DNA of 64,000 nt from Nitrosospira multiformis (GTDB lineage: Bacteria > Pseudomonadota > Gammaproteobacteria > Burkholderiales > Nitrosomonadaceae): contig NZ_FOHI01000002.1 of assembly GCF_900111585.1 (NCBI RefSeq), positions 62,001 through 126,000 of the forward strand. The letters are read 5' to 3'. The stretch's first letter is position 1. The number at the start of each line of letters is the position of its first letter. This document shows, piece after piece, positions 29,267 through 60,445 of the stretch. The notes beneath the pieces were generated by a model that saw only the letters and a list, made by a program, of their open reading frames with translations, was not told where the DNA came from and did no database searches. Made by a program: the position numbers and the translations under genes.

Positions 29267-30328
29267 ATGATTCTGGTAACAGGAGGCGCCGGATTTATCG
29301 GGGGGAATTTCGTATTGGATTGGTTGGAGCAATCTGACGAGGCGGTCATCAACCTCGACGTGCTCACTTATGCTGGCAACCTGGAGAACCTGAAAACGTT
29401 GGAGGGTGACAAGCGGCATGTTTTTGTACAAGGCGATATTGGTGATTCCGACCTCCTGATTCATCTGCTAAAGGACTATCGGCCGCGCGCCATCCTTAAT
29501 TTTGCCGCAGAGAGCCACGTCGATCGTTCCATACATGGTCCGGAGGACTTCATACAGACCAACATCGTGGGTACCTTTCGCCTTCTGGAAGCATCTCGCG
29601 ATTACTGGAGCAAACTGAAGGGAAATGAAAAGCAGCAGTTTCGTTTTCTGCACGTCTCAACCGATGAGGTTTATGGCTCGCTGGCAAAAGACGAAATGCC
29701 TTTTACCGAGACGCATCGTTACGAACCTAACAGCCCTTACTCGGCAAGCAAGGCAGCGAGCGATCATTTGGTGCGCGCCTATCACCACACTTACGGATTG
29801 CCTGTTCTCACCACAAACTGCTCCAACAATTACGGCCCATATCAATTTCCCGAAAAGCTCATTCCGCTCATGATCGTCAATGCATTGGCGGGAAAGTCAT
29901 TGCCGGTCTACGGCGATGGCCAGCAAATCCGTGACTGGCTCTACGTAAAAGATCATTGCAGCGCCATTCGCCGCGTGCTGGAGGACGGCATTCCGGGACA
30001 GATTTATAATATCGGCGGCTGGAATGAAAAACCCAACATCGAAATTGTGGAAACAATCTGTAGCCTGTTGGACACGTTTCGCCCCCAGGCGGGCCAGTCC
30101 TATCGCAATCTGATCAAATATGTGACGGATCGTCCAGGCCATGACCGGCGCTATGCGATCGATGCGAGCAAAATCGAGCGTGAACTGGGTTGGAGACCTG
30201 CTGAAACTTTTGAAACAGGAATCAGTAAAACCGTGCAATGGTATCTCGACAACGCGGCTTGGGTCACCCATGTTCAATCCGGTGCTTACCGACACTGGGT
30301 GGAGAAGAACTACAAAGAGCGCGCTTGA
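29267..30328 (+). CDS. rfbB: dTDP-glucose 4,6-dehydratase
   Basis: A 353-residue short-chain dehydrogenase family enzyme making dTDP-4-keto-6-deoxy-glucose. Motifs: [41 protein letters not shown] with the catalytic Thr-Asp-Glu, and [15 protein letters not shown] with the YxxxK pair. The remainder ([20 protein letters not shown]) is characteristic. The product feeds both rhamnose synthesis here and the aminotransferase at 51095. It heads a tight operon; the TGA overlaps the rfbD ATG by one base (TGATG). Confidence 0.97.
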
Positions 30329-31230
30329 TGAAAATTCTGCTGTTCGGAAAAGACGGCCAGGTTGGGTGGGAACTGCAGCGCAGCCTTGCCCCCCTGGGCG
30401 AGATAGTGGCTGTGGATTTTGGCAGCCAGGAATACTGCGGTGACTTCACGCGCTTAGATGGAATTGCGGATACCGTTCGGGCAGTTGCGCCGGATGTGAT
30501 CGTGAATGCGGCCGCCTATACAGCGGTGGACAAGGCTGAAAGCGAGCCGGAGCGTGTCCGTATCATCAACGCCCTCGCTCCCGCTATACTCGCCCGCGAG
30601 GCCGGCAAACTGGGTGCCTGGCTGGTGCATTATTCTACTGATTATGTATTTGACGGGAGTGGAAGTGTGCCTCGGGTGGAAACCGACCCCCCTGCCCCTT
30701 TAAATATGTACGGCATAACCAAGCTGGAAGGCGAACAAGCGATTCTGACCTCGGATTGCAATCATCTCATCTTTCGCACGAGTTGGGTTTTTGCAGTGCG
30801 TGGCAGTAATTTCGCAAAAACCATGCTGCGCTTGGCCCAGCAACGCGATAGTCTCAATGTTATCGATGACCAGGTCGGTGCTCCTACCGGTGCGGAGCTT
30901 CTGGCTGACATCACTGCTCACGTCATACGGATAAGCAGGCAGCGGCAGAATATCTCAGGGCTTTATCATCTGGCTGCCGCGGGTGAAACATCCTGGTACG
31001 GTTATGCGAATTTTGTATTGAACTTTGCGCGGCAGAGAGGAGTCAAGCTCACGGTCGCGCCGGAAAATGTTTTCCCGGTAGCAAGCAATGAATTTCCATC
31101 CGCCGCTCGGCGGCCAAAAAACTCGCGCCTCGATACCGGAAAACTGCAAAGCACATTCGATTTAAGCTTGCCGTCGTGGGAGACAGGGGTTGCGCGCATG
31201 GTCACCGAAATTCTCGAGAAACCACTATGA
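30328..31230 (+). CDS. rfbD: dTDP-4-dehydrorhamnose reductase
   Basis: A 300-residue NADPH-dependent reductase for the last step of dTDP-L-rhamnose synthesis. It starts [17 protein letters not shown] at the ATG overlapping the rfbB stop, and contains [29 protein letters not shown] and [14 protein letters not shown] with the YxxxK motif. It ends by a four-base ATGA overlap with rfbA. Upstream in-frame codons in rfbB are rejected as a start because the Rossmann motif begins at 30328. Confidence 0.96.
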
Positions 31231-32114
31231 TTCAGCGTAAAGGCATCATTCTTGCCGGGGGCTCCGGCACACGGCTCTATCCGGTGACAAAAGCAGTCTC
31301 CAAACAACTGCTGCCTATTTACGACAAGCCCATGATCTACTATCCGCTCAGCACATTGATGCTCGCGGGTATTCGCGACATTCTCATTATTTCCACTCCT
31401 CAGGATACGCCACGTTTCGAGCAGCTTCTGGGCGATGGGGGCGGCTGGGGTTTGAATCTGCAATATGCGGTGCAAAACAGCCCGGATGGGCTCGCTCATG
31501 CTTTTATCATTGGCAGGGATTTCATTGGAAGGAATTCGAGCGCGCTTGTGCTGGGTGATAACATTTTCTATGGTCACGATCTGCATCTGCAATTACAGCA
31601 TGCCATGGAAAGACAGGAAGGTGCGACAGTCTTTGCCTATCACGTACAGGATCCGCAGCGCTACGGGGTCGTCGCCTTTGATGCGAATCACCGGGTTTCT
31701 TCGCTGGAAGAAAAACCCGCTCAACCCAAAAGCAACTACGCGGTGACCGGCCTGTATTTCTACGATAATCAGGTGGTGGATATTGCTAGTGACCTCAAGC
31801 CTTCCGCACGCGGCGAGCTGGAAATCACCGATGTCAATCGCACTTATCTCAAGCACAATCAGCTCAATGTGGAAATCATGGGGCGTGGCTATGCCTGGCT
31901 GGATACCGGCACGCATGAAAGCCTGATAGAAGCGAGCAACTTCATTGAAACCATCGAGCATCGCCAGGGGCTCAAAGTGGCCTGCCCGGAAGAGATCGCC
32001 TTTCGCCAGGGTTTCATCAGCAGTGAGCAACTTGAGAAGCTGGCGCAACCTCTGGCCAAGAATGGTTACGGCCAGTACTTGAAACGCTTGTTAGAGGAAC
32101 GGGTGGTTACATGA
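31227..32114 (+). CDS. rfbA: Glucose-1-phosphate thymidylyltransferase
   Basis: A 295-residue enzyme making dTDP-glucose, the first step of the pathway. It starts at ATG 31227 ([20 protein letters not shown]), overlapping rfbD by four bases. Family motifs: [51 protein letters not shown] and [15 protein letters not shown]. It overlaps the next gene by ATGA too, so rfbB-D-A-C are translated as one coupled unit. Confidence 0.97.
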
Positions 32115-32662
32115 AGGTTATCGCCACCTCTATCCCGGAGGTCCTGATAATCGAGCCCAAAGTATTCGGAGATAGTCGCGGATTTTTCTTCGAGAGCTTC
32201 AATCAGGAAAATTTCCGGCAGGCGATCGGACTTGACGTGCGGTTTGTACAGGATAATCATAGCCGCTCTGTCAAGGGTGTGCTGCGTGGGCTGCACTATC
32301 AGCTTCGTCGGCCGCAGGGAAAGCTGGTACGTGTCGTGCGGGGAGCAGTATTCGACGTAGCGGTAGACATTCGCAGATCATCCCCTACTTTTGGGCATTG
32401 GGTCGGGATCGAATTGACTGAAGACAATTACCGCCAGTTGTGGTTGCCGCCCGGATTTGCGCATGGGTTCTATGTCCTCAGTGACATTGCAGATTTCTTA
32501 TATAAAACCACCGAGTACTATTTTCCTGATTTTGATCGCAGTATTCTGTGGAACGACTCGGGAATTGCCATCGAATGGCCCATCGAGGCAGGTGCAAGCC
32601 CCATTGTTTCCAGCAAAGATGAAAAGGCGGCGAGACTGGTGCATGCCGAGGTGTTCGAATGA
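32111..32662 (+). CDS. rfbC: dTDP-4-dehydrorhamnose 3,5-epimerase
   Basis: A 183-residue cupin-fold epimerase. Motifs: [34 protein letters not shown] with the catalytic histidine, [18 protein letters not shown] and [14 protein letters not shown]. It converts dTDP-4-keto-6-deoxyglucose to the L-configured keto sugar. It is the last of the four rhamnose genes. The desaturase gene follows after 104 bases. Confidence 0.96.
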
Positions 32663-42019: not shown

Positions 42020-43141
42020 ATGGCAACTTTAAAAGTTGTAGTCATTTTGCCGACCTACAACGAGCGGGATAACATTGGCATCATGATTGATGCGCTACAG
42101 GTTCAGGCTCGAGAATTTCTTCATAATATGCACATCCTTGTGGTGGATGATGATTCACCCGACGGCACGGCGGAAGTGGTTCGGGCCAAGCAGACGATAT
42201 ATCCGAATGTGCATTTGCTGATGGGAAAGAAGGCAGGGCTTGGTGCCGCCTATATTCGCGGAATGATTCATGCGATGGATGAGCTTCATGCCGACGTCGT
42301 GTTCGAGATGGATGCGGATTTTTCGCACAAACCCGAGGATGTGCCTCGGCTTATGGCGGCGCTCGATGGAGGCGCGGATTTTGTGATTGGCAGCCGTTAT
42401 GTGAAGGGCGGTTCCATTCCAAAGGAATGGGGGTTTTTACGCCGCATGAATTCCCTGGGCGGTAATATCGTTGCACGCTACGTTGCCGGGATATACAAAA
42501 TTCGAGACTGTACAGCCGGTTTCAGGGCGATCAAAACCACTCTCCTCAGAAAAGTCACTTTTGACGATCTTCGTGTTCAGGGATACGCTTTCCAGGTTGC
42601 ACTGCTGCACAAGGCCGTATCGCTCGGTGCAGTCATAAAAGAAGTTCCCGTGGACTTCATAGATCGCACCAAGGGTGAGTCGAAGCTCGGAATCGCGGAT
42701 ATCATCGAATTCATCCTGAACGCCTGGTGGATACGTCTCCACAGCTCAAAGACCTTTATCAAGTTCGCCATAGTAGGATTATCCGGCGTTGTTGTGAATC
42801 TTGGCGTGTTTACACTGCTTCTTCAGGCAAATATAAATAAATATATCGCCTCTCCTATCTCAATCGAAATATCGATCATCACGAACTTTCTGTTGAATAA
42901 TTACTGGACCTTCCGCTGGCGCACGTCTCAAGATCATATCCGTGTCAAGGGTCTGAAGTTCAACATGGTTTCTCTCGTATCCCTGGGGGTAAGTTATTCC
43001 ACTTTTGTAGTGCTATCCATTCTGTTCCCTGAGGCCTCGCCGGAGATTCACCAGCTTGTCGGTATTGCACCCGCCATGTTCATAAATTACTTTCTGAATT
43101 CTTATTGGACGTTCAAGAATACTCCCGCACCCAAGGATTGA
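42020..43141 (+). CDS. Polyprenyl-phosphate mannose/glucose synthase fused to a GtrA-like membrane domain
   Basis: A 373-residue two-domain protein. Residues 1-240 are a DPM1-type GT2: VVVILPTYNERDNIGIMIDAL, LVVDDDSPDGTAEVV, FEMDADFSHKPEDVP with the DxD-like site, and RDCTAGFRAIKTTLLRKV. Residues about 245-370 are a GtrA domain with four hydrophobic segments (FIKFAIVGLSGVVVNLGVFT, NFLLNNYWTF, MFINYFLNSYWTFKN). It should charge undecaprenyl phosphate with mannose (or glucose), and the GtrA part may help flip the product. GDP-mannose could come from manC at 25596. The product could be a donor for the membrane transferases at 43312 and 58868. Confidence 0.9.
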   Translation: MATLKVVVILPTYNERDNIGIMIDALQVQAREFLHNMHILVVDDDSPDGTAEVVRAKQTIYPNVHLLMGKKAGLGAAYIRGMIHAMDELHADVVFEMDADFSHKPEDVPRLMAALDGGADFVIGSRYVKGGSIPKEWGFLRRMNSLGGNIVARYVAGIYKIRDCTAGFRAIKTTLLRKVTFDDLRVQGYAFQVALLHKAVSLGAVIKEVPVDFIDRTKGESKLGIADIIEFILNAWWIRLHSSKTFIKFAIVGLSGVVVNLGVFTLLLQANINKYIASPISIEISIITNFLLNNYWTFRWRTSQDHIRVKGLKFNMVSLVSLGVSYSTFVVLSILFPEASPEIHQLVGIAPAMFINYFLNSYWTFKNTPAPKD

Positions 43142-43311
43142 GTAAACTGGAAGGGGTGTCATTTCACAGCCGCTTTCAATTGTTTTCGGCTCTTTACTCG
43201 ACAGAACATCATTAAACTGAACGTAAGCTGGCGCCACTTTGGACCGGATTTGTCAACATATCCGGTTTACCTGTGTTAAAAGGTATGCGCTAATTTTCCG
43301 AATCCTCAGCT

Positions 43312-44637
43312 TTGAACACACTTCCAGATCCAGAAAGTAACATCGAACGCGTCCATCGCTTTCAACGCCGGCACACGGTTGCCGCTCCCTTGTTTCATCT
43401 CCTCGATTCCCACGTTTTCCTGCCGGTGTGTTTCATACTCTTCGTGGCATTGCGCGTAGCGCTGATTTTCTTTGTGCCCGTTGAGATGACTTCCGATGCA
43501 AGCTGGTACTTCGACAGGGCGGTTAGCATAGCGAGTGGCGGCGGCTATTCGGAAGCCGGATATCCGACAGCCTACTGGCCGGTTGGCTATCCCGGCTTTC
43601 TTGGTATCCTTTTCTATCTTTTCGGTCAGGATCAATTGGTAGGGCAGATAGCTAATTTAGTAATGGCAGTCATCAGTTTTTTTTTGCAACTGGAACTGAC
43701 ACGAAGAATTTTCCGGAACGAAGCGGTTGCGCGCCTGGGAGTCCTCCTGCTTACCCTATACCCGAATCATGTAGCTTATACCTCTTTGATCTTAACCGAA
43801 ATTTACTTTACCTTTTTACTGCTTCTTGGCGTATACCTCTACATAACAAGGAGCCACTGGTTCTGGATATGGGTTTGCGGCATTGTCTTCGGGCTGGCAG
43901 CGCTGACCAAACCGCAGGTAGTATTCTTGCCTGGTCTGCTGGTACTTTTTCATGTATTCAGCGCGGAGAGAAGGGATAGGCTGCGGCAGCACCTCATCAA
44001 GGGACTTGCTATCTATCTTACAATGGCTGTGGTGCTGGTCCCATGGGCGGTGCGGAACACAATGATTTTCGGGGAACTCGTCCTGATCTCCACCAACGGG
44101 GGCGCAACGCTCCTGACTGGAAACAATCCCACAGCGCGCGGAGGCTACGAGGAAAATGATCCATTGGTGGCCCAGCGCAATTTCTCGGTTCAGGATCAAG
44201 TGGAATCGGACCGGCGCGCAAAGAAGTTGGCAACCGATTGGATAAGAGAGAACCCCGTGCGGTTTGTAGAACTTATCCCTCTGAAGATATGGCATCTGTG
44301 GTCCAGAAATGGCGAAGCGGAGTGGGCCTATCAGGCGGGCTACCGGTATTATGAGCAATATAGCGGCGCGTTCCATACCGTGAGGTGGATAAATCAGATC
44401 TTTTATGCTCTACTGCTTGTGGGCTCGTTCGCAGCAGCTTTCCTGTTGATAAAGCATTGCGATAAAGTCGCCTGGCCGTGGGTGCTCATCGGATACTGCC
44501 TGATGATTTACCTGACCCTGATATCGATAGTCTTTTCTGGACAACCCAGATTCCATTTTCCGGCCATGCCATGGGTCATCATGTATACAGCGTGGGCAGC
44601 CGTTATGATCAAGGTAAGTCAGCCTCGGGAACGATAA
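43312..44637 (+). CDS. GT39/ArnT-like membrane glycosyltransferase
   Basis: A 441-residue polytopic membrane protein with 9-11 hydrophobic segments. The first periplasmic loop has TSDASWYFDRAVSIASGGGY, with an acidic residue in the position used by PMT/ArnT-family enzymes, then TAYWPVGYPGFLGILFYLFG. The family transfers a sugar from a polyprenyl-phosphate donor to an acceptor in the periplasm. The start is TTG 43312; no ATG stands before the first membrane segment, and the ribosome site is poor. It is followed by an ArnC-like transferase (44851) that could make its donor. Confidence 0.82.
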   Translation: MNTLPDPESNIERVHRFQRRHTVAAPLFHLLDSHVFLPVCFILFVALRVALIFFVPVEMTSDASWYFDRAVSIASGGGYSEAGYPTAYWPVGYPGFLGILFYLFGQDQLVGQIANLVMAVISFFLQLELTRRIFRNEAVARLGVLLLTLYPNHVAYTSLILTEIYFTFLLLLGVYLYITRSHWFWIWVCGIVFGLAALTKPQVVFLPGLLVLFHVFSAERRDRLRQHLIKGLAIYLTMAVVLVPWAVRNTMIFGELVLISTNGGATLLTGNNPTARGGYEENDPLVAQRNFSVQDQVESDRRAKKLATDWIRENPVRFVELIPLKIWHLWSRNGEAEWAYQAGYRYYEQYSGAFHTVRWINQIFYALLLVGSFAAAFLLIKHCDKVAWPWVLIGYCLMIYLTLISIVFSGQPRFHFPAMPWVIMYTAWAAVMIKVSQPRER

Positions 44638-44850
44638 GACGCCTATGTATCCAGAACATCAGGTTTCTAGAGGCTGCAACCCGCTTCCAGACGAATGAGC
44701 GCTCGTTTGGCGGATGCGATCCATCCGGTAAGAGGGCGCCATGATCTCGAACTTTTCCAGGTTTCCCATTGCGGCGCGTCTTCGTCTAAAAAGTAAATCA
44801 TGCCACTTTAAGCCGTAATTAAGTAGAATTTGACCACAGGGCACCAGAAG

Positions 44851-45804
44851 ATGAACAAGGAATCCGGATCTGACCATACGCCGCCGGAAATCAGCATTGT
44901 CTCCACCATGTACCGGTCGCGACCGTTTCTTGACCGGTTTCTTGCCGAGTCCCTGCAAGCCTTATCCGATATCAAGTGTGACCATTTTGAGATATTGCTC
45001 GTCAATGATGGCTCGCCGGATGAGTCTCTGGCTTATGTGCTTGAGCGCCAAGCAGACATCCCGCAACTCGTCGTGGTTGACCTTTCGCGGAACTTTGGAC
45101 ATCACCAGGCCGTACAAGCTGGATTACGGCATGCGCGAGGAAATCTCATTTTTCTCATCGACTGCGACCTGGAGGTGTCGCCGCTGGTGCTGGGAGAGTT
45201 TTACGCCAAACTACGCGAGACAAAATCCGACGTCGTTTTTGGCTATCAGGAAATGCGCAAAGGGGGACAGTTTGAACAGATGAGCGGAGGACTATTCTGG
45301 AAAGGGTTCAACCTGCTCAGCGATGTAAAGATCCCTGAAAACATTCTTACGGAACGGATCATGACGCGTCGTTGTGTGGAAGCGCTACTGCAGATGGGCG
45401 ACCGGAATCTTTTTCTCGGTGGTATGATGAGTTGGACGGGTTTTCAGCAAATCGGCCTGCCTATCGTCAAGAAACAGCGCAAAGGCAGAAGCACATATAC
45501 TCTCCTGCGACGTATCGGACTGATGATCAATGCAGTGAGTTCGTTCTCCGCTCAGCCACTGATCTGGCTGTTCAATATAGGCGTGATCATTACCCTGCTG
45601 AGTTTCTCATTTGCATTCTATCTTGTATTACGAAAGCTACTGTTTGACGACACCCTCATGGGTTTCACTTCAGTAATGACCATGATGATGCTCAGCCTCG
45701 GCATTATGACCACAGCCATTGGGGTCGTAGGTATTTATCTGGGAAAGGTATTCAACCAGGTGCAGAACAGACCCAATTATATCGTGAGAGATATTTACCG
45801 CTGA
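44851..45804 (+). CDS. GT2 polyprenyl-phosphate sugar transferase (GtrB/ArnC-like)
   Basis: A 317-residue enzyme. The GT-A domain shows EISIVSTMYRSRPFLDRFLA, LLVNDGSPDESL, DLSRNFGHHQAVQAGLRHAR and IFLIDCDLEVSPLVL. Two hydrophobic segments follow (PLIWLFNIGVIITLLSFSFA, TMMMLSLGIMTTAIGVVGIY) and the end is QNRPNYIVRD, as in GtrB and ArnC. It should attach a sugar to undecaprenyl phosphate. The start ATG 44851 is preferred over TTG 44830, because an AGAAG site precedes it. Location between an ArnT-like gene and the amino-sugar cassette suggests it loads the modified sugar. Confidence 0.9.
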   Translation: MNKESGSDHTPPEISIVSTMYRSRPFLDRFLAESLQALSDIKCDHFEILLVNDGSPDESLAYVLERQADIPQLVVVDLSRNFGHHQAVQAGLRHARGNLIFLIDCDLEVSPLVLGEFYAKLRETKSDVVFGYQEMRKGGQFEQMSGGLFWKGFNLLSDVKIPENILTERIMTRRCVEALLQMGDRNLFLGGMMSWTGFQQIGLPIVKKQRKGRSTYTLLRRIGLMINAVSSFSAQPLIWLFNIGVIITLLSFSFAFYLVLRKLLFDDTLMGFTSVMTMMMLSLGIMTTAIGVVGIYLGKVFNQVQNRPNYIVRDIYR

Positions 45805-45916
45805 TGTTCAACCTGCACCGATGTACGGTAACGTGGCGTCCTTCTGATTTAGAATGAGAGCAAGGGATAATTAAAAAACTTATGCTCCATTTCTACTTAA
45901 ATAAAGGAGGATATTC

Positions 45917-46633
45917 ATGAGCCTGGAAAATGAGCAGGATTCAACCGCATATGATCGCACTTATGTTCTCGATAATCGGCTAACCCTACAGTGGTACCCC
46001 CAAAGAGTCGTTGCGATGGCGCAAACGGGCAGCATGTTGGAGCTGGGCTTGGGACACGGTTACTCCACCGAATATTTTGCAAAGACTTTTCAGCGCTACC
46101 AAGTGGTTGAAGGCTCCCAGGAGATGATTGATCGCTTCAGAAAGCGCTTCGCAATCGAGGGCGTTGATATCGCACAGGGGTATTTTGAGGATTTCGAGAC
46201 TGACGAACGCTTCGACGTGATTGGCATGGGTTTCGTTCTTGAGCATGTGGACGATCCGGCCGCGATTATACGACGCTATGCGCAGTTCCTTTCTCCAGGT
46301 GGATCCATTTATATTGCCGTTCCGAACGCTGAATCCCTGCATCGGAGGCTGGGGCATGCTGCAGGCCTGCTCCCCGACATTTATGCTTTGAGTTCAGCCG
46401 ATCTCGAATTCGGCCATAAGCGTTATTTCACTCTGGAATCGCTGGTTACAATGGTACAAGGCGAGGGATTGAGGATACGCAAGGTTGAAGGTCTCTTGCT
46501 CAAGCCGATCACGACGCAGCAGATGCTCGATTTGAATCTCAGCGAAGCAATCTTGCAGGCAATGCTCAAAGTGGGCGTTGACTATCCCGAGCTATGCAAC
46601 TCTTTACTGATCCAGGCGAGCAGACCTGGCTAG
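45917..46633 (+). CDS. Class I SAM-dependent methyltransferase
   Basis: A 238-residue methyltransferase: motif I MLELGLGHGYSTEYF, VEGSQEMIDRFRKRF, FDVIGMGFVLEHVDDPAAII and the post-motif SPGGSIYIAVPNAESLHRR. An excellent ribosome site (AAAGGAGG) precedes ATG 45917. It is the first gene of the run to rffA. The target could be a sugar hydroxyl or the acyl group made by the following genes. No substrate-specific motif is visible. Confidence 0.88.
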   Translation: MSLENEQDSTAYDRTYVLDNRLTLQWYPQRVVAMAQTGSMLELGLGHGYSTEYFAKTFQRYQVVEGSQEMIDRFRKRFAIEGVDIAQGYFEDFETDERFDVIGMGFVLEHVDDPAAIIRRYAQFLSPGGSIYIAVPNAESLHRRLGHAAGLLPDIYALSSADLEFGHKRYFTLESLVTMVQGEGLRIRKVEGLLLKPITTQQMLDLNLSEAILQAMLKVGVDYPELCNSLLIQASRPG

Positions 46634-46655
46634 CACTGGCGTCTGGTGCCATCGG

Positions 46656-46681
46656 AAAAACTTGAATTAGAAAAACTTGAA
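46656..46681 (+). repeat. Short direct repeat before the VOC gene
   Basis: AAAAACTTGAA occurs at 46656-46666 and again at 46671-46681, with a 15-base period. It lies just before the VOC gene. Its meaning is unclear; it may be a slippage product. Confidence 0.3.
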
Positions 46682-46699
46682 CTGGCTTCTTAACAGGAA

Positions 46700-47125
46700 A
46701 TGCAATTTTCAATGCAGGCGTTCGCTCTTCGCTTCCATCATTTTGGTCTGGCCAGCAGACGGCCGGAGCAGACGCTTAAGTTCCTCAAGGGACTGGGCCA
46801 TGAGGTGGCTATGCAGGTCTATGACCCGCTGCAAAACGTGAATCTCTGGCTGTGCCCCCATTCTTCCATGCCTACTGTGGAGCTGGTCGCGCCTGCGGAG
46901 GGACAAGGTCCCTTGGATGCAATCCTCACCCAATCGAGCGAAAGCATTTACCACCTCTGTTACGAAACCGAAGATCTCCAAAACAGCCTTGAAGCCTTGA
47001 AAACAGGCGGATTCCGCGTAATCTGCGTATCCCCCCCAAAGCCTGCGATCCTCTTCGATGACAGACGGGTCAGCTTCTATATGATTAAGGATTTTGGCAT
47101 AATCGAGTTGTTGGAATCCCGTTGA
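46700..47125 (+). CDS. VOC family protein (glyoxalase/epimerase fold)
   Basis: A 141-residue vicinal-oxygen-chelate protein. It has FRFHHFGLASRRPEQ-like opening strands (ALRFHHFGLASRRPEQTLKF), VELVAPAEGQGPLDAIL, the HLCYETEDLQNSLEAL middle with a metal-type histidine and an IIELLES end. These features recall methylmalonyl-CoA epimerase-like VOC proteins. Within this cassette it may act on the acyl group or its carrier-bound form. The start 46700 overlaps its AGGA site, so ATG 46712 is also possible. Confidence 0.85.
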   Translation: MQFSMQAFALRFHHFGLASRRPEQTLKFLKGLGHEVAMQVYDPLQNVNLWLCPHSSMPTVELVAPAEGQGPLDAILTQSSESIYHLCYETEDLQNSLEALKTGGFRVICVSPPKPAILFDDRRVSFYMIKDFGIIELLESR

Positions 47126-47143
47126 CGATATCGCCGGAGAAAA

Positions 47144-48922
47144 GTGTTTACAGCCGTTTCCTCATTCCCTGCGGATATTCCCCCGACTCTCTCGGATCTT
47201 ATCAGTACCTCCGATACCATGTATGCCGCGATGTCCTCTACGGCTCCCGCATATCGCTTCGGTTTCTTACGCAACGTAACGCTGGAAGGGATTGAGCCTT
47301 ATCTGCGCTACCACATGTTGAGGATGGGGCTGCGGCCTGAACTGATCTTTGGGGGCTATGGATCCATCCGTCAGGATCTGATATTACCCGACTCACCGCT
47401 GGTCAAGGGTTGTCCAGACCTTCTGGTAACGGCGTTTATGCTTGAGGAGTTGGATCCGCATTACGGCCTCCCGGGGTGGAATGCATCACATTGCCGGGAG
47501 GAGTTGAGTACTATTTTTGACGCCTTGGCGGCCAGCGACGCCTCCACCATCAGCCTCAATACGTTCATCGTTCCCTTTCGCTCGGAGACTGGCACATTAA
47601 TCGCGGCCCCGGACATTGCCAGTGAGGTAATCAGGCTTAATGATTTTGTCCGGACCTTTGTCCGTGAGCACAGTCCGCGTTTCTGTCTAATGGACTGGGA
47701 TCGGCTTGCATACCGGATTGGCGAGGCCGAGGCCATGGACTATCGGTACTGGTATATTTCCAAGGCTCCGTTCAAACGATCCTTTCTCGATGCCTTGGCG
47801 CGGGAATTAACGAAAGTTGTGCTTGCCCTCAAGGGGCATAGCAAGAAATGCCTGGTCCTGGATTGTGATAATACGCTTTGGGGCGGCGTTGTCGGGGAGG
47901 ATGGCATTGAAGGTATCCATTTGGATGGGCATGATTATCCGGGCCGGGCATATTATGATTTTCAGAAGACCGTCCTGCAATTGGCCGAACGTGGCGTGTT
48001 AATAACGCTCTGTTCGAAAAACAACGAACAGGATGTGCTCGATGTCCTCGATAAGCATCCCTGGAGCCTGCTCAAACGCAACCATCTGTCCGGCTTCCGG
48101 ATCAACTGGGACGACAAGGCTGCTAACCTGGTCGAGTTGGCAAAGGAGCTGAATCTCGGTCTCGATGCTTTTGTATTCGTGGATGACAATCGGCGAGAGC
48201 TGGAATTAATACGGCAGGTACTCCCTCAAGTGACTACCTTGCAAGTGCCGGATAGGCTCTATGAATATCCGGCATTGCTCCAGCGCGATGGCCTGTTCGA
48301 TACGTTGCTAACCAGCCAAGAGGATAAGCTGCGAACCAGTCTCTATCAGACTGAAGCGCAGCGCAAAGCCGAACGAAATCAGCATCCGGATTTGGAGAGC
48401 TACCTTTTATCGTTGCAATTGGTGGTGAATATTCAAGTTGCAACCGACCGGGAGGCAATGCGGGTTGTACAGCTGACCCAGAAAACGAATCAGTTCAATT
48501 TAACGACCCGGCGCTATTCCGATCACGATATTGCGCGGTTTCGCTCATCCAAGGACGCCTGTGTTTATACTTTATCCGCCAGCGACCGTTTTGGCTCTCT
48601 TGGATTGGTAGGTGTATTTATAGTCCAACGCCGGCAGGAGACCGCCTTGGTCGATTCCCTTTTGATGAGTTGCAGAGCGCTAGGCCGCCGTCTTGAGATA
48701 GCCTTTGTCCTGGAGTGCATGCGGCGTATTGTAGCGGATTGGGGAATCCTCACCTGGGAAGCAGAATACCTGTCCACAGCCAAGAACAGTCAAGTGGCGG
48801 ATTTCTGGAGTACCCTTGGTTTTGCTCTGCTGGAACAAGCGGACGGACGCCGGCGCTATCGCTTGCAGGCCGCCATGCCCGAGATCGATCCACCGAGCTT
48901 TATCCATATTGAAGGAGAGTAG
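47144..48922 (+). CDS. FkbH-like HAD-IIIC protein with N-terminal SGNH-like and C-terminal GNAT-like regions
   Basis: A 592-residue multi-domain protein. Residues about 1-220 resemble the N-terminal domain common in long FkbH proteins. The HAD domain begins KKCLVLDCDNTLWGGVVGED, with aspartates 240 and 242, then LCSKNNEQDVLDVL, AFVFVDDNRRELELIRQ. The C-terminal part (QLTQKTNQFNLTTRRYSDHD, VYTLSASDRFGSLGLVGVFI) is an acetyltransferase-like fold. FkbH proteins load three-carbon units such as a glyceryl group from 1,3-bisphosphoglycerate onto an acyl carrier protein. The next gene is such a carrier. GTG 47144 has GGAG four bases before it. Confidence 0.9.
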   Translation: MFTAVSSFPADIPPTLSDLISTSDTMYAAMSSTAPAYRFGFLRNVTLEGIEPYLRYHMLRMGLRPELIFGGYGSIRQDLILPDSPLVKGCPDLLVTAFMLEELDPHYGLPGWNASHCREELSTIFDALAASDASTISLNTFIVPFRSETGTLIAAPDIASEVIRLNDFVRTFVREHSPRFCLMDWDRLAYRIGEAEAMDYRYWYISKAPFKRSFLDALARELTKVVLALKGHSKKCLVLDCDNTLWGGVVGEDGIEGIHLDGHDYPGRAYYDFQKTVLQLAERGVLITLCSKNNEQDVLDVLDKHPWSLLKRNHLSGFRINWDDKAANLVELAKELNLGLDAFVFVDDNRRELELIRQVLPQVTTLQVPDRLYEYPALLQRDGLFDTLLTSQEDKLRTSLYQTEAQRKAERNQHPDLESYLLSLQLVVNIQVATDREAMRVVQLTQKTNQFNLTTRRYSDHDIARFRSSKDACVYTLSASDRFGSLGLVGVFIVQRRQETALVDSLLMSCRALGRRLEIAFVLECMRRIVADWGILTWEAEYLSTAKNSQVADFWSTLGFALLEQADGRRRYRLQAAMPEIDPPSFIHIEGE

Positions 48923-48930
48923 GCATTGCT

Positions 48931-49167
48931 ATGTCTGATATAGAGAATCGCACCCGTGACGTTATGGCGAAAGTCCTGCAAGTCGCACCGCAAGATATCT
49001 CTCCCGACATTTCACGTAAGAATCTTCCCGCGTGGGACTCACTCAAGCACATGAATCTGATGCTGGCTCTGGAGGAGGAATTCGGTATCGAGTTCAGTGA
49101 CAAGGAAATAGCCGATCTAAGCAGTCTGCATCTTTTAGTGGACGCCTTGCGGACCAAGCATTCATGA
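48931..49167 (+). CDS. Acyl carrier protein, FkbH partner
   Basis: A 78-residue acyl carrier protein with the phosphopantetheine serine 37 in LPAWDSLKHMNLMLALEEEF. The tryptophan directly before DS is common in stand-alone carriers paired with FkbH. It starts eight bases after the FkbH-like gene and overlaps the acyltransferase gene by four bases (ATGA). This is strong evidence that the three work on one carrier-bound acyl group. Confidence 0.92.
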   Translation: MSDIENRTRDVMAKVLQVAPQDISPDISRKNLPAWDSLKHMNLMLALEEEFGIEFSDKEIADLSSLHLLVDALRTKHS

Positions 49168-49844
49168 ATGGTCAGTCTGATAGGCCTTTAGTCATCTTCG
49201 GCGTGGGGGAACTGGCCCAGTTGGCTTGCTATTACTTTACCCATGATAGCCCCCGCCGGGTTGCTGCCTTTACCGTAGATCGCATCTATTTCCGGGAAAA
49301 TCAATGCATGGGGCTACCGGTGCTTGCCTTCGATGAGGTAGATACGCGCTACGCGCCTGAGGAATATGATATGTTTGTGGCCTTGGGCTATACCCGCCTG
49401 AATCAGGCCAGAGCAGAAAAGTGCCTGGAAGCTAAATCCCGTGGTTACCGCCTGGCGACATATGTCAGCAGTCGAAGCGTGACTTGGCCCGATCTGACCG
49501 TCGGCGAGAACTGTTTCATCATGGAGGGAAATGTAATTCAGCCCTTCGTGCGAATAGGCAACAATGTCATCATCTGGTGCGGCAGCCTTGTCAGCCATCA
49601 CGCCGAAATTGACGACAATTGCTTCATCGCCGCTCACGCAGTCATCTCGGGTCATGTAAAGATAGGTGCTCACAGCTTCATCGGTGTAAACGCAACCCTA
49701 CGCGACAAGATAACTCTGGCGGAGCGCACTCTACTCGGTGCGGGTGCCCTGGTCACTGCCAGTACTGACGAGAATACCGCGTATCTTACTGCATCCAGCC
49801 AGGAAGCCGGGGTTCCTAGCCATCGGCTGCAATCATTGCTCTAA
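49164..49844 (+). CDS. NeuD/PglD-like left-handed beta-helix acyltransferase
   Basis: A 226-residue sugar acyltransferase. An N-terminal Rossmann-like nucleotide-sugar domain (LVIFGVGELAQLACYYFTHD) is followed by hexapeptide repeats (NCFIMEGNVIQPFVRIGNNV, IIWCGSLVSHHAEIDDNCFI, AAHAVISGHVKIGAHSFIGV). The histidine in VSHHAEI is in the usual catalytic position. NeuD and PglD enzymes acetylate O or N groups of amino sugars, and PglD works on 4-amino-4,6-dideoxy sugars. Here a carrier protein overlaps the start, so the acyl donor may be acyl-ACP and not acetyl-CoA; that part is an inference. Confidence 0.9.
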   Translation: MNGQSDRPLVIFGVGELAQLACYYFTHDSPRRVAAFTVDRIYFRENQCMGLPVLAFDEVDTRYAPEEYDMFVALGYTRLNQARAEKCLEAKSRGYRLATYVSSRSVTWPDLTVGENCFIMEGNVIQPFVRIGNNVIIWCGSLVSHHAEIDDNCFIAAHAVISGHVKIGAHSFIGVNATLRDKITLAERTLLGAGALVTASTDENTAYLTASSQEAGVPSHRLQSLL

Positions 49845-49856
49845 CAGAGCTATATC

Positions 49857-50561
49857 ATGCAAGCCAGGCACAACAAAGTTGCTATCCTTCAATCCAATTA
49901 TATACCCTGGAGAGGCTACTTCGATCTCATTCACGACGTCGACCTTTTCATCTTCTATGACGACGTGCAATACACGCATTCGGACTGGCGCAATCGGAAC
50001 AAATTGATGACGAAGGATGGGCCGCGATGGCTGTCGATACCCGCTGGCCATAATCTGAAGAGTCTGATCTGCGAAGTGGAAATTCCGGATCAGCGCTGGA
50101 AACAGCAGCACAGAAGCATAATCGAACAGAACTACCGAAGTGCCCCTTTCATCAAGAAATCACGACCACTGCTGGATTTTCTGTATGAAAATTCGATAAC
50201 AAATCTTTCCGACTATAACCAGCGCGCAATCAGGCACCTGTCCGATATCCTCGGCATTCAAACCCAATTTACTGATAGCAGGCTTCTTGGAATCAATGGC
50301 AGGAAAACCGAGCGGTTAATAGGCATCCTCGAGAAAGTCGGGGCAACGACATACATTAGCGGTCCTTCGGCGCGAGATTATATCGATGAATCTCTGTTTG
50401 ATGAGGCCGGTATCAAGCTGGAATATAAGGAATACCCTGCTTATCCCACTTATCTGCAATGTTTTTCACCATTTGCGCCATTTGTTACTATCCTGGATCT
50501 GATTCTGAACGTGGGATCCGACTCGCCTCGTTATATCTGGGAATGGCGCAAGCAAATATAA
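49857..50561 (+). CDS. WbqC family protein
   Basis: A 234-residue WbqC-like protein. The signature is complete: VAILQSNYIPWRGYFDLIHD, FIFYDDVQYTHSDWRNRNKL near the N-terminus, and PAYPTYLQCFSPFAPFVTIL near the C-terminus. WbqC proteins occur in O-antigen clusters with unusual acylated sugars. Their reaction is not established to my knowledge. It sits 12 bases after the acyltransferase gene, in the same cassette. Confidence 0.9.
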   Translation: MQARHNKVAILQSNYIPWRGYFDLIHDVDLFIFYDDVQYTHSDWRNRNKLMTKDGPRWLSIPAGHNLKSLICEVEIPDQRWKQQHRSIIEQNYRSAPFIKKSRPLLDFLYENSITNLSDYNQRAIRHLSDILGIQTQFTDSRLLGINGRKTERLIGILEKVGATTYISGPSARDYIDESLFDEAGIKLEYKEYPAYPTYLQCFSPFAPFVTILDLILNVGSDSPRYIWEWRKQI

Positions 50562-50678
50562 AGAGCGGCCGTAATTGACCCAGGATAGTGATACGATTAA
50601 AAAGTTGCGTCAACGTGATCTCTGGTTCTGTTCCATCCGGTGATCCACTTTCCATAAGCTGCTGCGCCTGAGGTGAAG

Positions 50679-51062
50679 ATGAAGGAACGATTCGATATAG
50701 CAGGACATGTTTATATCCTGTTAACCCTGCTGTTCACCGTGTATGGTCAACTGGTGCTCAAATGGCAGATGGGGCGGAGCGGCAGCATGCCGGAAGGAGG
50801 AGTCGATAAGGTTCTGTTTCTGCTCCAGCAGTTTCTCAACCCATGGATCATCTCGGGTTTGTTTGCGGCTTTTCTTGCCTCGCTTGCCTGGATGGCAGCC
50901 ATGACACGTTTCGAGCTCAACTACGCTTATCCTTTCATGAGCCTGGCGTTTGTCATCGTCATGCTCTTCTCTGTGCTTTTCCTCAACGAATCGCTCACTC
51001 TCCAAAATGTCCTGGGCACGGTTATGGTTGTCAGCGGGCTGATTGTCATAGCTCGAGCCTAA
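50679..51062 (+). CDS. Small four-helix transporter (EamA/SMR, ArnE-like)
   Basis: A 127-residue membrane protein with four hydrophobic segments: YILLTLLFTVYGQLVLKWQM, IISGLFAAFLASLAWMAAM, YAYPFMSLAFVIVMLFSVLF (approximate) and LGTVMVVSGLIVIA. It resembles ArnE/ArnF, which flip undecaprenyl-phosphate-aminoarabinose. The gene lies directly before a sugar aminotransferase. Start ATG 50679 has GAGGTGAAG before it. GTG 50673 is an alternative. Confidence 0.85.
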   Translation: MKERFDIAGHVYILLTLLFTVYGQLVLKWQMGRSGSMPEGGVDKVLFLLQQFLNPWIISGLFAAFLASLAWMAAMTRFELNYAYPFMSLAFVIVMLFSVLFLNESLTLQNVLGTVMVVSGLIVIARA

Positions 51063-51094
51063 GAGCGCCTTACCCAGACACGCCTATTTCAGCC

Positions 51095-52216
51095 ATGATT
51101 CCTTTTAATAAGCCCTATATGACTGGCAAGGAGCTATGGTATGTCAGCCAGGCTCATGCGAACGGACACCTGGCTGGCGATGGGGTTTTCACGAAGAAGT
51201 GCAACGCGTGGCTGGAACGCCGTATCGGGTGTAAAAAAGCGTTGCTGACGCATTCCTGCACGGCTGCGCTGGAGATGGCGGCCATTCTTGCGCAGATCGG
51301 ACCCGGCGATGAAGTCATCATGCCTTCCTATACTTTCGTCTCCACTGCCAACGCGTTCGCATTGAGAGGGGGCGTGCCTGTATTCGTGGACATCCGGCCT
51401 GATACATTCAATATCGACGAAGCCCTGATCGAGGCCGCCATCACCCCGAGAACCAAAGCGATCGTTGCTGTCCACTATGCAGGGGTGGGATGCGAGATGG
51501 ATGCCATCATGTCCATCGCCGAACGATATGGTTTGTTCGTGATCGAGGATGCCGCCCAAGGCATTATGTCAACCTACAAGGGCAGACCGCTGGGCAGTAT
51601 CGGCCATCTGGCAGCGCTGAGTTTCCACGAGACCAAGAACATCATTTCCGGGGAAGGGGGGGCCCTGCTGGTGAACGATGTACGCTTTGCGGAGCAGGCG
51701 GAAATAATCAGGGAAAAAGGTACTAATCGCAGTCAGTTTTTTCGTGGGCAGGTGGATAAGTATACCTGGGTGGATTTCGGCTCATCCTATCTTCCCAGTG
51801 AACTCATCGCTGCCTTTCTCTGGGCTCAAATAGAAGAGGCGGATGCAATCACGCAACGCCGCCTCGATATCTGGGACGTCTACCACGCTAATTTCGAGCT
51901 TTTGGAAAAACAGGGGAAGATCCGGCGACCGATCATTCCTTCTGATTGCGTGCACAACGCGCATATGTACTATCTCCTGTTGCCCAACCTGGACAAGCGT
52001 ACCGCCTTTATCGATGCCCTCCGGCAGAAGGGAATAGGAACAGTTTTTCATTACGTTCCTCTTGACAGCTCTCCCATGGGGGAGAAGTGGGGCCGCAAGT
52101 CAGGCGCATTAACTTGGACACAAGAGCTGAGTGACCGGCTGGTGAGGCTGCCGCTGTGGCTCGGACTGGAGGAATACCAGAACGAAGTTATTCAGCATGT
52201 CGCGGCCGAGTTATGA
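51095..52216 (+). CDS. rffA: dTDP-4-amino-4,6-dideoxygalactose transaminase (WecE/RffA)
   Basis: A 373-residue PLP-dependent aminotransferase. It starts MIPFNKPYMTGKELWYVSQA and has the family's HSCTAALEMAAILAQIGPGD, MPSYTFVSTANAF, EDAAQGIMSTYKGRPLG and the PLP lysine 181 in SFHETKNIISGEGG. Signatures match WecE/RffA, which aminates dTDP-4-keto-6-deoxyglucose, made by RfbA and RfbB here, to dTDP-Fuc4N. A longer reading frame runs back to 50843 but overlaps the transporter gene and is not supported. The cassette context suggests its amine is then acylated. Confidence 0.92.
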   Translation: MIPFNKPYMTGKELWYVSQAHANGHLAGDGVFTKKCNAWLERRIGCKKALLTHSCTAALEMAAILAQIGPGDEVIMPSYTFVSTANAFALRGGVPVFVDIRPDTFNIDEALIEAAITPRTKAIVAVHYAGVGCEMDAIMSIAERYGLFVIEDAAQGIMSTYKGRPLGSIGHLAALSFHETKNIISGEGGALLVNDVRFAEQAEIIREKGTNRSQFFRGQVDKYTWVDFGSSYLPSELIAAFLWAQIEEADAITQRRLDIWDVYHANFELLEKQGKIRRPIIPSDCVHNAHMYYLLLPNLDKRTAFIDALRQKGIGTVFHYVPLDSSPMGEKWGRKSGALTWTQELSDRLVRLPLWLGLEEYQNEVIQHVAAEL

Positions 52217-52345
52217 AAAAAGTCGCGTTCCAGTTTCCATATTCCTTTGCATAAGTCATTTGGCACGACTTCCTATATGTTTCTGACTGGAGTTTCACGT
52301 AAATCTTCCGTTAAGCCATGCTGGACCTGACCGCAAAAAAAATTG

Positions 52346-57780: not shown

Positions 57781-57894
57781 ACTGGAAGATCAATAATACA
57801 CCGTTTGACCTAATCTCAGTCTCAGCGCGCGATTACGATGAGCATCGACCAAGTACAGTGGTTTAATCAGGAAATACCGGATAGAGAGACTGAG

Positions 57895-58867: not shown

Positions 58868-60445
58868 TTAAGTGCTTCGGTCGAGCAAATAAACCTTGAG
58901 GTTAAAATCTTCGAGTTTAGGACACCCGTTGAAAGGCCGGTATCTGGAAATAAACCAGGCATAAGTTAGCGGATGCATTCGGCTATATCGAAATTCGGGA
59001 TTGCCATCCAGCGCATGGTCGGATAGGAGCACCAATTCCGGTAAAGCTGATTCGAGACGCTTAATTTCAGCAATTTCAAAGTCCCTGCCTCTTGGGAACA
59101 AAGCATAAATTTCCCATATTGGCATCCTGGTACGAAAAATCGCATGTATGCTCGGCATATTGGGTAAGGCCAAAAACTTTCCAGAAGGTCCCGTTAATTC
59201 TTGCAGCTCTCTGGTTATCAGCTGCAGTCTCTCCGACAAACCGCGACTTATCCAAAGTTGCTCGCCAGCAACATCGGTTTTTACATAATCCATTTTGATT
59301 AAATTGTGTGCCAGATACGCGTTCGAGCCGCTCATGGTAATCAACGATATCCCGAGCAAGCTAACGCCCAGCGCTAGCGGACGCAATCCCTTCATTAACC
59401 CGCCTGCAGCCATTAGACCGATCAAGGCTGGAAATATACCTAGCGAGAGATGCGTTAGGTCTGGACGGGAAAAAGCATAGTGAGCATAAGGAATAGCGGC
59501 AGCAATTGTCGCTACAAGGACTTTTCTCGCATCCTCATTCAAATCAAAACGTTTAAATGCCAGGGCGAGGATTCCCACCAGAGGAAAAGCCAATAAAAAT
59601 ATAAAGCCGATTCCAGTGAATATTGTCACTGTTGTCCAGAAAATTCCCAGCTCTCCCCATTTCACAGCCCAAGGCCAGGGAACAGGAAGGGGAAGGTTGG
59701 TTGCTCCATACTTAAACATCAAGACGATACTATTTATGAATGCAGCTGTGAAACCGTCAACGGCAAGCATCATGATTAGCGTCGGTGAAAAGCCGATCAA
59801 AACGCCCAGGACGAAATAACCACATAAGCCTGCCAAAGCTCGTCGGGAGGATGTCTGGACCAAAAGTGCCGATATCACAAAAATGGATGCGACCGCGCCA
59901 TACACGCCGTGATTACGCCCCATGATGGCTGCAATGCCAAGACAGATACCTGCAAAAAGCCATGCCGCAGGTTTGGCAGTTTTCAGCATGAGGACCAGCA
60001 TTGCGACAATAATAATGCTGGTGGCATGATCATAGACCTTGTAATACGGTATCGCCCAGATGGTAAGAATGAAGGCTGCCAGCAGTGCGAATAGCCATCG
60101 CACAGCGCCTTCTCGTTGCAGGGCCACCAGGCAGGTGAACACGCCCAATAGGATCCCGAAGGTTTGATAGGCGGCCGCACTCAGACGTGCTGCAAAGGGT
60201 CCATCGTCTCCCATGAAGCGCATGAAAGCGGCCGTCCAGTAATATCTACCGATGTCATAGGACATGAAATCACGCAGCGGTACTTCCCCCTGCAAGACGC
60301 GCTGCGCTCCATACCAATAATAACCTTCATCGGCCAAATCAAAGTCATATCGCCAGGTAAGCCAAAACCAAAAGCCTGAAATCCCGACCGCCATCACTGT
60401 CGCCACGAAAAAGTTTGTGCGATATGAGTTATGCGCCGATATCAT
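58868..60445 (-). CDS. Polytopic membrane glycosyltransferase, GT39/ArnT-like
   Basis: A 525-residue protein with about 11-12 hydrophobic segments. The first periplasmic loop reads DFDLADEGYYWYGAQRVLQG, with acidic residues as in PMT/GT39 enzymes, followed by FMSYDIGRYYWTAAFMRF. The C-terminal tail is soluble. It should take a polyprenyl-phosphate-linked sugar in the periplasm. It is transcribed from the minus strand toward the gene at 57895. A 260-base gap before its start is without a gene and is likely its promoter region. Confidence 0.8.
   Translation of the reverse strand: MISAHNSYRTNFFVATVMAVGISGFWFWLTWRYDFDLADEGYYWYGAQRVLQGEVPLRDFMSYDIGRYYWTAAFMRFMGDDGPFAARLSAAAYQTFGILLGVFTCLVALQREGAVRWLFALLAAFILTIWAIPYYKVYDHATSIIIVAMLVLMLKTAKPAAWLFAGICLGIAAIMGRNHGVYGAVASIFVISALLVQTSSRRALAGLCGYFVLGVLIGFSPTLIMMLAVDGFTAAFINSIVLMFKYGATNLPLPVPWPWAVKWGELGIFWTTVTIFTGIGFIFLLAFPLVGILALAFKRFDLNEDARKVLVATIAAAIPYAHYAFSRPDLTHLSLGIFPALIGLMAAGGLMKGLRPLALGVSLLGISLITMSGSNAYLAHNLIKMDYVKTDVAGEQLWISRGLSERLQLITRELQELTGPSGKFLALPNMPSIHAIFRTRMPIWEIYALFPRGRDFEIAEIKRLESALPELVLLSDHALDGNPEFRYSRMHPLTYAWFISRYRPFNGCPKLEDFNLKVYLLDRST

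Follow-up and report, generated by a model that had tools for sequence, protein, structure and literature searches.

A candidate Arn-like sugar-decoration system with an exchangeable acyl cassette in an exopolysaccharide locus of Nitrosospira multiformis

Three-component periplasmic glycosylation systems (GtrAB/Gtr and the pentofuranose systems, as described in passages of PMC11127046; background on undecaprenyl phosphate, Und-P, in passages of PMC12826051) consist of a polyprenyl-phosphate sugar synthase, a flippase, and a GT-C glycosyltransferase. The Arn pathway, which adds 4-amino-4-deoxyarabinose (Ara4N) to lipid A, similarly combines a 4-aminosugar with an ArnC-like Und-P transferase, a small EamA-type flippase, and a PMT-type transferase. 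We analyzed a 64,000-nucleotide stretch of the Nitrosospira multiformis contig NZ_FOHI01000002.1 (hereafter the window), in which eleven genes at 42020–52216 share these components. Compared with the three-component systems, the donor in this locus would come from a nucleotide amino sugar with acylation linked to an acyl carrier protein (ACP), and a WbqC gene belongs to the core. The locus departs from Arn in that its aminotransferase is WecE instead of ArnB, it includes an acyl cassette within an exopolysaccharide (EPS) setting, and nothing in the genome exceeds the ArnA cut-off.

For the acyl group, the closest precedent is the flagellin of Campylobacter jejuni, which according to passages of PMC3068675 and PMC3958885 carries a di-O-methylglyceroyl pseudaminic acid that requires cj1295. 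Passages of PMC7099621 describe two strains in which this modification was not detected and which lack either cj1302 (fkbH domain, a pseudogene) or cj1301 (annotated as an epimerase); the link between these losses and the missing modification is drawn here rather than in those passages, and the strains differ in other respects too. The two cases would thus be alike in having a bacterial sugar that bears methylated glycerate, with an fkbH-domain gene and a gene called an "epimerase" in the locus, cj1301 being likened by its annotation. However, the C. jejuni sugar is a nonulosonic acid on flagellin, and the passages of PMC3068675 and PMC7099621 mention no Und-P route. In polyketide clusters, FkbH makes glyceryl-ACP (passages of PMC7489565), and the window likewise has FkbH, a discrete ACP, and a methyltransferase comparable to the O-methyltransferase of those clusters, whereas the glycan context, the VOC partner, and the lack of dehydrogenases in the cassette are different. 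Neither of the two dehydrogenases of the methoxymalonyl-ACP pathway is found among the cassette genes, so no hydroxymalonyl unit is expected, and methoxymalonyl-type chemistry was rejected. Finally, the acyltransferase of the window resembles the NeuD/PglD/PerB/VioB N-acyltransferases (TIGR03570 over cut-off; best PDB match the perosamine N-acetyltransferase 4ea7), except that its proposed donor is an acyl-ACP, as in LpxA/LpxD, rather than acetyl-CoA. In the open-licence literature on FkbH and on WbqC, judged by titles and the beginnings of abstracts, only the C. jejuni paper has an fkbH gene in a surface-glycan locus; no such literature was found that joins WbqC and FkbH, and none on Nitrosospira EPS was relevant by title.

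The ten kilobases are best read as three parts: a carrier chassis (GtrB, WbqC, ArnE, and WecE), an acyl cassette (methyltransferase, VOC, FkbH, ACP, and NeuD), and a separate Gtr-type pair (42020 and 43312). We consider it somewhat favored, at a probability of roughly 0.55, that the locus encodes an Arn-like three-component periplasmic decoration system in which the sugar carries an ACP-delivered acyl group and the acyl cassette is swappable. All eleven genes listed in an earlier reading of this DNA (the original prediction) are open, lie on the forward strand, and match Pfam or NCBIfam profiles (Table 1; identities were judged against curated cut-offs, and transmembrane, TM, segments were counted by simple hydropathy). 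The intergenic gaps from 42020 through the gene after WecE range from −4 to 213 bp. This block sits inside an exosortase-type EPS locus with XrtB at 7697, EpsD, EpsF, and, at 52343, a glycosyltransferase of TIGR04063, a family named for the XrtA system. Gene-by-gene GC content gave no clear foreign signature in the cassette.

The comparisons covered 23 Nitrosospira genomes and 300 genomes sampled from the order (299 others), both sets including the window's own genome (3.2 Mb, 99.6% complete). A GtrB ortholog (80–94% identity) is found in nine other Nitrosospira genomes, making ten of the 23; these nine loci were read together with that of one genome that had lost GtrB (G307). GtrB, WbqC, and the ArnE-like gene are present in all nine and WecE in eight, the exception being locus L231 of G314 (a genome 80% complete), where the contig ends inside ArnE. 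WbqC is divergent (49–51%) in G303, G306, and G314, so the chassis is itself a mosaic. Across the order, an independent search with GtrB returned eight non-window relatives (40–47% identity, 240–290 bits) before the score dropped to 178 bits, and all eight directly adjoin a WbqC gene. Seven of these eight loci have an ArnE-like gene, seven have WecE, and six have all four genes. In L155, a GtrA gene stands in place of ArnE, and the ArnE match there lies on the opposite strand about 7.6 kb from WbqC; no WecE was seen in L162, and in the six loci where it was measured WecE is 66–69% identical. The acyl parts of these loci vary, with NeuD in L156 and L157, a formyltransferase in L160, and ATP-grasp plus SDR in L155. 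The expectation that FkbH, ACP, WbqC, ArnE-like, and WecE genes would stay together in relatives therefore holds by half: the GtrB–WbqC–ArnE–WecE core is conserved together, but FkbH and ACP form a swappable insert outside it. As a separate observation, in locus L152 (16435–17350; strain Nl18, also represented by L032) the intact GtrB is preceded by a second, broken copy of the gene and by one resembling an AMP-ligase.

The individual chassis genes fit the predicted carrier route. The features of the 44851 product, a GT2 domain and two C-terminal TM segments, are those expected of a polyprenyl-phosphate sugar synthase; its ArnC/GtrB-like description stands at the level of best matches (PgfS, then ArnC), which are below the curated cut-offs. 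Similarly, the ArnE-like gene holds as an EamA protein closest to ArnF, below the cut-off of 99 bits. ArnE-like matches occur in 118 of the 300 genomes at E 1e-6, and each of the 18 non-window matches above 100 bits has a GtrB-like gene no more than 2.3 kb away. The presumed flippase is thus genetically tied to the synthase, as in Gtr-type systems, and this comparison supports the predicted set for loading and flipping on Und-P. The predicted 4-amino-4,6-dideoxysugar is also supported, because WecE exceeds its cut-off (613 vs 435 bits) and RmlA and RmlB are encoded in the same locus; WecE also matches the PDB entries 4piw and 6blg (E < 1e-142). WbqC occurs in 52 of the 300 genomes at 63 places, and all 62 non-window places (61 loci) were inspected. 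A match to the DegT aminotransferase profile lies within 8 kb in 52 of the 61 loci, and therefore WbqC belongs mostly to amino-sugar pathways. A sequence search of PDB with WbqC gave nothing meaningful, and its AlphaFold2 (AF2) model, built from four sequences, is weak (predicted local distance difference test score, pLDDT, 59), with no PDB fold match under E 0.001; the weak matches include nucleotidyltransferase-like folds, on which no conclusion is based here. One WbqC relative has been suggested to be a glycine transferase. A 305-residue family without a Pfam match (L157:3709–4623 and relatives) was also observed in 18 of the 61 WbqC loci, with two copies in eight.

In contrast to the chassis, the acyl genes come and go. 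The methyltransferase, VOC, FkbH, ACP, and NeuD genes stand between GtrB and WbqC in five of the ten GtrB-bearing Nitrosospira genomes (the window's own, G300, G301, G303, and G304) in identical order, and the other four FkbH proteins are 79–97% identical to that of the window. The nearest named record, N. multiformis Nl18 (L032), has a 97% identical FkbH (among the 80 top-ranked of 523 confirmed matches). In L227–L231, the same locus has neither FkbH nor VOC. G312, G306, and G319 have a hexapeptide acyltransferase alone at this position (G300 has one besides the full cassette), G314 (L231) has a methyltransferase and an ATP-grasp/HAD fusion identified by Pfam, and G321 (L227) has just a 39-residue acyltransferase remnant. 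In G319 (L230), a 41-residue NeuD remnant (73% identity) lies right upstream of WbqC, a trace left by the lost cassette. In G307 (L232), everything from GtrB to WecE is lost, leaving a 3' remnant of GtrB between PMT_2 and GT4a, and 42020, 43312, GT4a, and GT4b remain. The acyl genes are therefore an exchangeable insert, and the five genes appear to be a cassette that is plugged into a conserved chassis and exchanged among Nitrosospira strains. The ATP-grasp/HAD fusion (L231:3082–4755) occupies the position of FkbH, ACP, and NeuD and adjoins a 46% relative of the cassette methyltransferase. It is possible that this fusion provides an alternative route to the same acylation. In Neisseria, the ATP-grasp protein PglB2 transfers glyceramide.

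The features of the FkbH protein are those of the glyceryl-loading family, namely a domain over cut-off, the HAD aspartates, and a partner ACP; its DxDxTLW motif and Cys510 are invariant in seven aligned sequences, window included. Beyond the genus, we surveyed named-record FkbH loci among the best 80 of the 523 confirmed matches, counting 79 loci (L033–L111) without L032; since these same loci supplied the ACP and VOC profiles used for counting, the counts are somewhat favorable. In 75 of the 79, FkbH has an ACP no farther than 2.5 kb away, which supports the predicted ACP-borne acyl group, and a NeuD- or DegT-like gene is found somewhere in 43. A plasmid search with FkbH returned 119 records, all below 60% identity. 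Related arrangements occur in other lineages: locus L021 of G272, from another family of the order, reads FkbH–methyltransferase–VOC–ACP–hexapeptide–WbqC–CmcI methyltransferase–aminotransferase, accompanied by RmlA-, RmlC-, and RmlD-like genes, and L028 (FkbH–ACP–GNAT–VOC–methyltransferase–FdtA–aminotransferase) is probably a 3-amino analogue. FkbH and WbqC share a locus only in the window and in G272 among the 300 genomes, and the archaeal loci L043 and L079 among the 79 FkbH loci also hold a WbqC match. As a general pair, FkbH and WbqC were rejected (13 and 52 of 300 genomes, respectively, with both in three). The methyltransferase is found in all five FkbH-type loci and L231, and is not beside the chassis in L227–L230; relatives (46–51%) occur without FkbH in L155 and L193, and a strict tie between this gene and acyl activation was not upheld.

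Other FkbH-like genes were also observed. The window's own genome has a second, distant one (33% identity; G000:C9:181737–182552; L018 and L031), and distant genes of this kind were matched in 12 of the 23 Nitrosospira genomes. In nine Bacteroidales loci (L048, L052, L061, L072, L082–L085, and L089), VOC lies upstream of FkbH–ACP, and all nine have NeuD and a further ACP upstream. FkbH–ACP with nearby NeuD-like genes is also seen in the archaeal loci L044, L066, L079, L043, and L049 (Heimdallarchaeota, Nitrosopumilales, Nitrosopelagicus, Methanospirillaceae, and Nanoarchaeota).

Presence and absence separate 42020 and 43312 from the amino-sugar genes, with which the original prediction had grouped them. 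A 43312 relative occurs in 11 of the 23 Nitrosospira genomes (46% in G300; only fragments in G319). Six genomes have both this gene and the GtrB ortholog (including G319 with its fragments), four have GtrB alone, five have 43312 alone, and eight have neither. In addition, G307 keeps 42020 and 43312 although GtrB to WecE were lost. A place for this pair in the amino-sugar system was rejected on these grounds, and the two genes make up an independent Gtr-type pair. The description of 43312 as ArnT-like did not hold either, its only match being the generic PMT_2 family, although it could serve the amino sugar too. Relatives (31–42%) of the 58868 membrane protein flank six of the eight GtrB–WbqC loci of the order, and G301, an FkbH-type genome that has no 43312, encodes an 85% ortholog downstream of its chassis. 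In G300, G321, G312, and G319, another membrane protein directly follows WecE; Pfam places the G321 protein in PMT_2, and the other three are related to it. Neither type lies near the chassis in G303 or G304, which have 58868-type paralogs (33–40%) elsewhere in the genome as well as 43312. The transferring enzyme in the window would therefore be 58868 or 43312. By its context, 58868–60445 may be the GT-C partner of the chassis, though it lies outside 42020–52216. The adjacent 340-residue protein (57838–58857), which has no NCBIfam or Pfam match, is kept beside this candidate in G301 (91%).

Together, these genes outline a possible pathway. RmlA and RmlB would supply dTDP-4-keto-6-deoxyglucose, the substrate that WecE, by its family, would aminate to dTDP-4-amino-4,6-dideoxygalactose (dTDP-Fuc4N). 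FkbH probably charges the ACP with a D-glyceryl unit taken from 1,3-bisphosphoglycerate, the VOC protein may change the C2 configuration of the glyceryl unit on the thioester, the methyltransferase may O-methylate this unit or else the sugar, and NeuD may move the acyl unit to the 4-amino group; for these four steps, family and context are the guides. The GtrB-like enzyme would then transfer the acylated sugar to Und-P, the ArnE-like protein would flip the lipid-linked sugar, and a GT-C enzyme (58868 and/or 43312) would attach the sugar on the outer side to a glycan, for which the exosortase-linked EPS is the likeliest candidate. WbqC is expected to act on the amino sugar. Decoration with an N-(O-methyl)glyceryl-type amino sugar is suggested by analogy with known systems, and we infer every substrate, the order of the steps, the N-linkage, the methylation site, and the acceptor.

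Several observations weigh against this pathway. NeuD relatives (49–50%) lie in the chassis loci L156 and L157, where no ACP or FkbH was found, so that acetyl-CoA may be the donor for NeuD and the glyceryl-ACP may have another destination. A methyltransferase relative (46%) adjoins WbqC without FkbH in L193, and in G321 (L227) a chassis is present with no acyltransferase found at the locus beyond the remnant. Co-occurrence of FkbH and WbqC is not above chance: with FkbH in 13 and WbqC in 52 of the 300 genomes, about 2.3 would be expected to have both, and three do. Ten of the 13 FkbH genomes have no VOC match at E 1e-6, and therefore FkbH often works without this VOC. Finally, a 58868-type gene is missing from the vicinity of the chassis in G303, G304, and G300.

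The VOC protein is the least familiar member of the cassette. Searched singly against the 300 genomes at E 1e-6, it matched the window and two other genomes, in all cases beside FkbH (chance of 6e-5 for three of three counting the window; about 0.0015 for two of two among 12 of the 299, window excluded). Among the 79 FkbH loci, the family lies on the same strand within 4 kb of FkbH in 25, and on either strand in 27; none was found in the 60 WbqC loci that lack FkbH. This rarity and placement argue against an ordinary glyoxalase or dioxygenase that entered the operon by chance, an explanation that we regard as unlikely. The AF2 model (pLDDT 92.8) does match a glyoxalase best in Foldseek, the Ni-glyoxalase I of Clostridium acetobutylicum (3hdp/2qh0; TM-score 0.83–0.90). 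However, the ranks that follow are nearly all methylmalonyl-CoA epimerases through rank 22, and the first dioxygenase fold appears at rank 29 of the 50 shown. H14, E61, H85, and E136 align with 3hdp and are conserved in 31, 32, 31, and 31, respectively, of the 32 sequences compared, a set that includes the window and L032; we take these residues to be the H/E/H/E metal set of glyoxalase I. Both glyoxalase I and methylmalonyl-CoA epimerase catalyze the shift of a proton at the carbon alpha to a thioester or hemithioacetal. Because of this fold match, and because glyceryl-S-ACP is a 2-hydroxy thioester, we propose from the model that the VOC protein may be a glyceryl-ACP 2-epimerase. D42, which is invariant in 23 sequences, could be the catalytic base. 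Glu43 and Gln60, presumably functional residues of the Streptomyces coelicolor epimerase (variants of both appear in structure entries), are not conserved as such, and the protein scores 32 bits against the cut-off of 115 for TIGR03081, the methylmalonyl-CoA epimerase family, despite the similar fold. More broadly and more tentatively, this family may be a new glyceryl-ACP 2-epimerase and VOC–FkbH–ACP a widespread plug-in by which surface amino sugars acquire a glycerate that is chiral and often methylated. In this locus the unit would be joined to a three-component Und-P system, and bacteria would vary their lipid-carried sugar through exchange of the acyl cassette while the carrier chassis is kept.

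Alternatively, acylated Fuc4N may be an ordinary constituent of the EPS repeat, added by a cytoplasmic GT4 enzyme and exported by Wzx, with GtrB and ArnE serving another sugar. GT4 genes, an AMP-ligase, and Wzx do lie directly downstream of the block, WecE adjoins GT4a, and 45 of the 61 WbqC loci have no GtrB-profile match within 8 kb, so WbqC and amino sugars usually occur without an Und-P route. Yet GtrB, WbqC, ArnE, and WecE stand together in all nine Nitrosospira loci (window included) that extend far enough and in six of the eight GtrB–WbqC loci elsewhere in the order, and GtrB to WecE were lost together in L232 while GT4a and GT4b stayed. We judge the backbone explanation improbable, at about the level of the chance-glyoxalase explanation, and prefer periplasmic decoration. 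An equally doubtful proposal retains the cassette chemistry and changes its target: the glyceryl-ACP would feed an O-acyl substituent of EPS or lipid, and NeuD would perform plain N-acetylation of Fuc4N. NeuD without ACP or FkbH in L156 and L157 agrees with this, as do the acetyltransferases that are its best PDB relatives. Against it, the ACP and NeuD genes of the window share 4 bp, and NeuD travels with the cassette, being present in the five FkbH-type loci and absent or a remnant in L227–L231.

The acceptor could also be protein, as in PgfS-like O-glycosylation of exported PEP-CTERM proteins, instead of EPS. Among curated models the GtrB-like gene matches PgfS best, and next to the block the 39996 frame, with VPEP close to its C-terminus, encodes a putative PEP-CTERM protein, but the PgfS score (161 of 500 bits) is far below cut-off, the GT-C families differ between strains, as acceptor-specific enzymes do, and the locus is an EPS locus; we give protein glycosylation a rather smaller chance than either of the preceding two explanations. 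Addition of Ara4N to lipid A by a classical Arn system is very improbable and was rejected despite the ArnC-, ArnE-, and PMT-like genes, because the aminotransferase is WecE rather than ArnB (198 bits vs a cut-off of 631), no ArnA exceeds its cut-off in the nearly complete genome (best 165 of 777 bits), and ArnC (123 of 529), ArnF (48 of 99), and ArnE (25.5 of 92) all score below theirs.

Table 1. Positions, strands, and supporting matches of the genes discussed (coordinates within the window)
Feature	Position	Strand	Evidence and remarks
RmlB (29267), RmlD (30238), RmlA (31176), RmlC (32111)	29267..32662	+	NCBIfam equivalogs over cut-off: TIGR01181, TIGR01214, TIGR01207, TIGR01221
Polyprenyl-phosphate sugar synthase fused to GtrA flippase	42020..43141	+	Pfam GT2 and GtrA_DPMS_TM
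PMT_2 membrane glycosyltransferase	43312..44637	+	PMT_2, 42 bits; 7 TM (hydropathy)
GtrB/PgfS-like Und-P sugar transferase (predicted)	44851..45804 (alternative start 44830)	+	GT2; PgfS 161 bits, ArnC 123 bits
Class I methyltransferase	45917..46633	+	Pfam; acyl cassette
VOC protein	46700..47125	+	Glyoxalase_4; acyl cassette
FkbH-type putative glyceryl loading enzyme	47144..48922	+	TIGR01686, 279.5 bits vs cut-off 146.65; acyl cassette
ACP, DSL motif	48931..49167	+	PF00550 PP-binding; acyl cassette
NeuD/PglD/perosamine-acyltransferase-like hexapeptide transferase	49164..49844	+	NeuD_NnaD TIGR03570, 188.8 bits vs cut-off 160.8; acyl cassette
WbqC	49857..50561	+	PF08889, 241.8 bits; chassis
ArnE/ArnF-like small membrane protein, presumed flippase	50679..51062 (alternative start 50673)	+	EamA; ArnF 48 bits; 4 TM; chassis
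WecE dTDP-4-amino-4,6-dideoxygalactose transaminase, 373 aa	51095..52216	+	TIGR02379, 613 bits (cut-off 435); NF008687, 623 bits (over cut-off)
Membrane protein, 525 aa, early DEG motif; candidate GT-C	58868..60445	-	No Pfam/NCBIfam match; 8 TM (hydropathy)

Elsewhere in the EPS locus, a fatty acid desaturase gene (32767–33873) lies between the Rml genes and a sugar dehydrogenase gene.

The original prediction was largely right about the pathway and wrong about two of its genes. If the proposed system is correct, it would join three topics that are usually studied apart, namely three-component decoration on Und-P, N-acylation of amino sugars, and the FkbH/ACP glyceryl chemistry of polyketide pathways. 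It would also give a testable function to the FkbH-linked VOC family and a tight context to WbqC, and it would predict a sugar mass to seek in Nitrosospira EPS. The acyl group would then be an exchangeable part of the surface glycan, with the carrier machinery kept.

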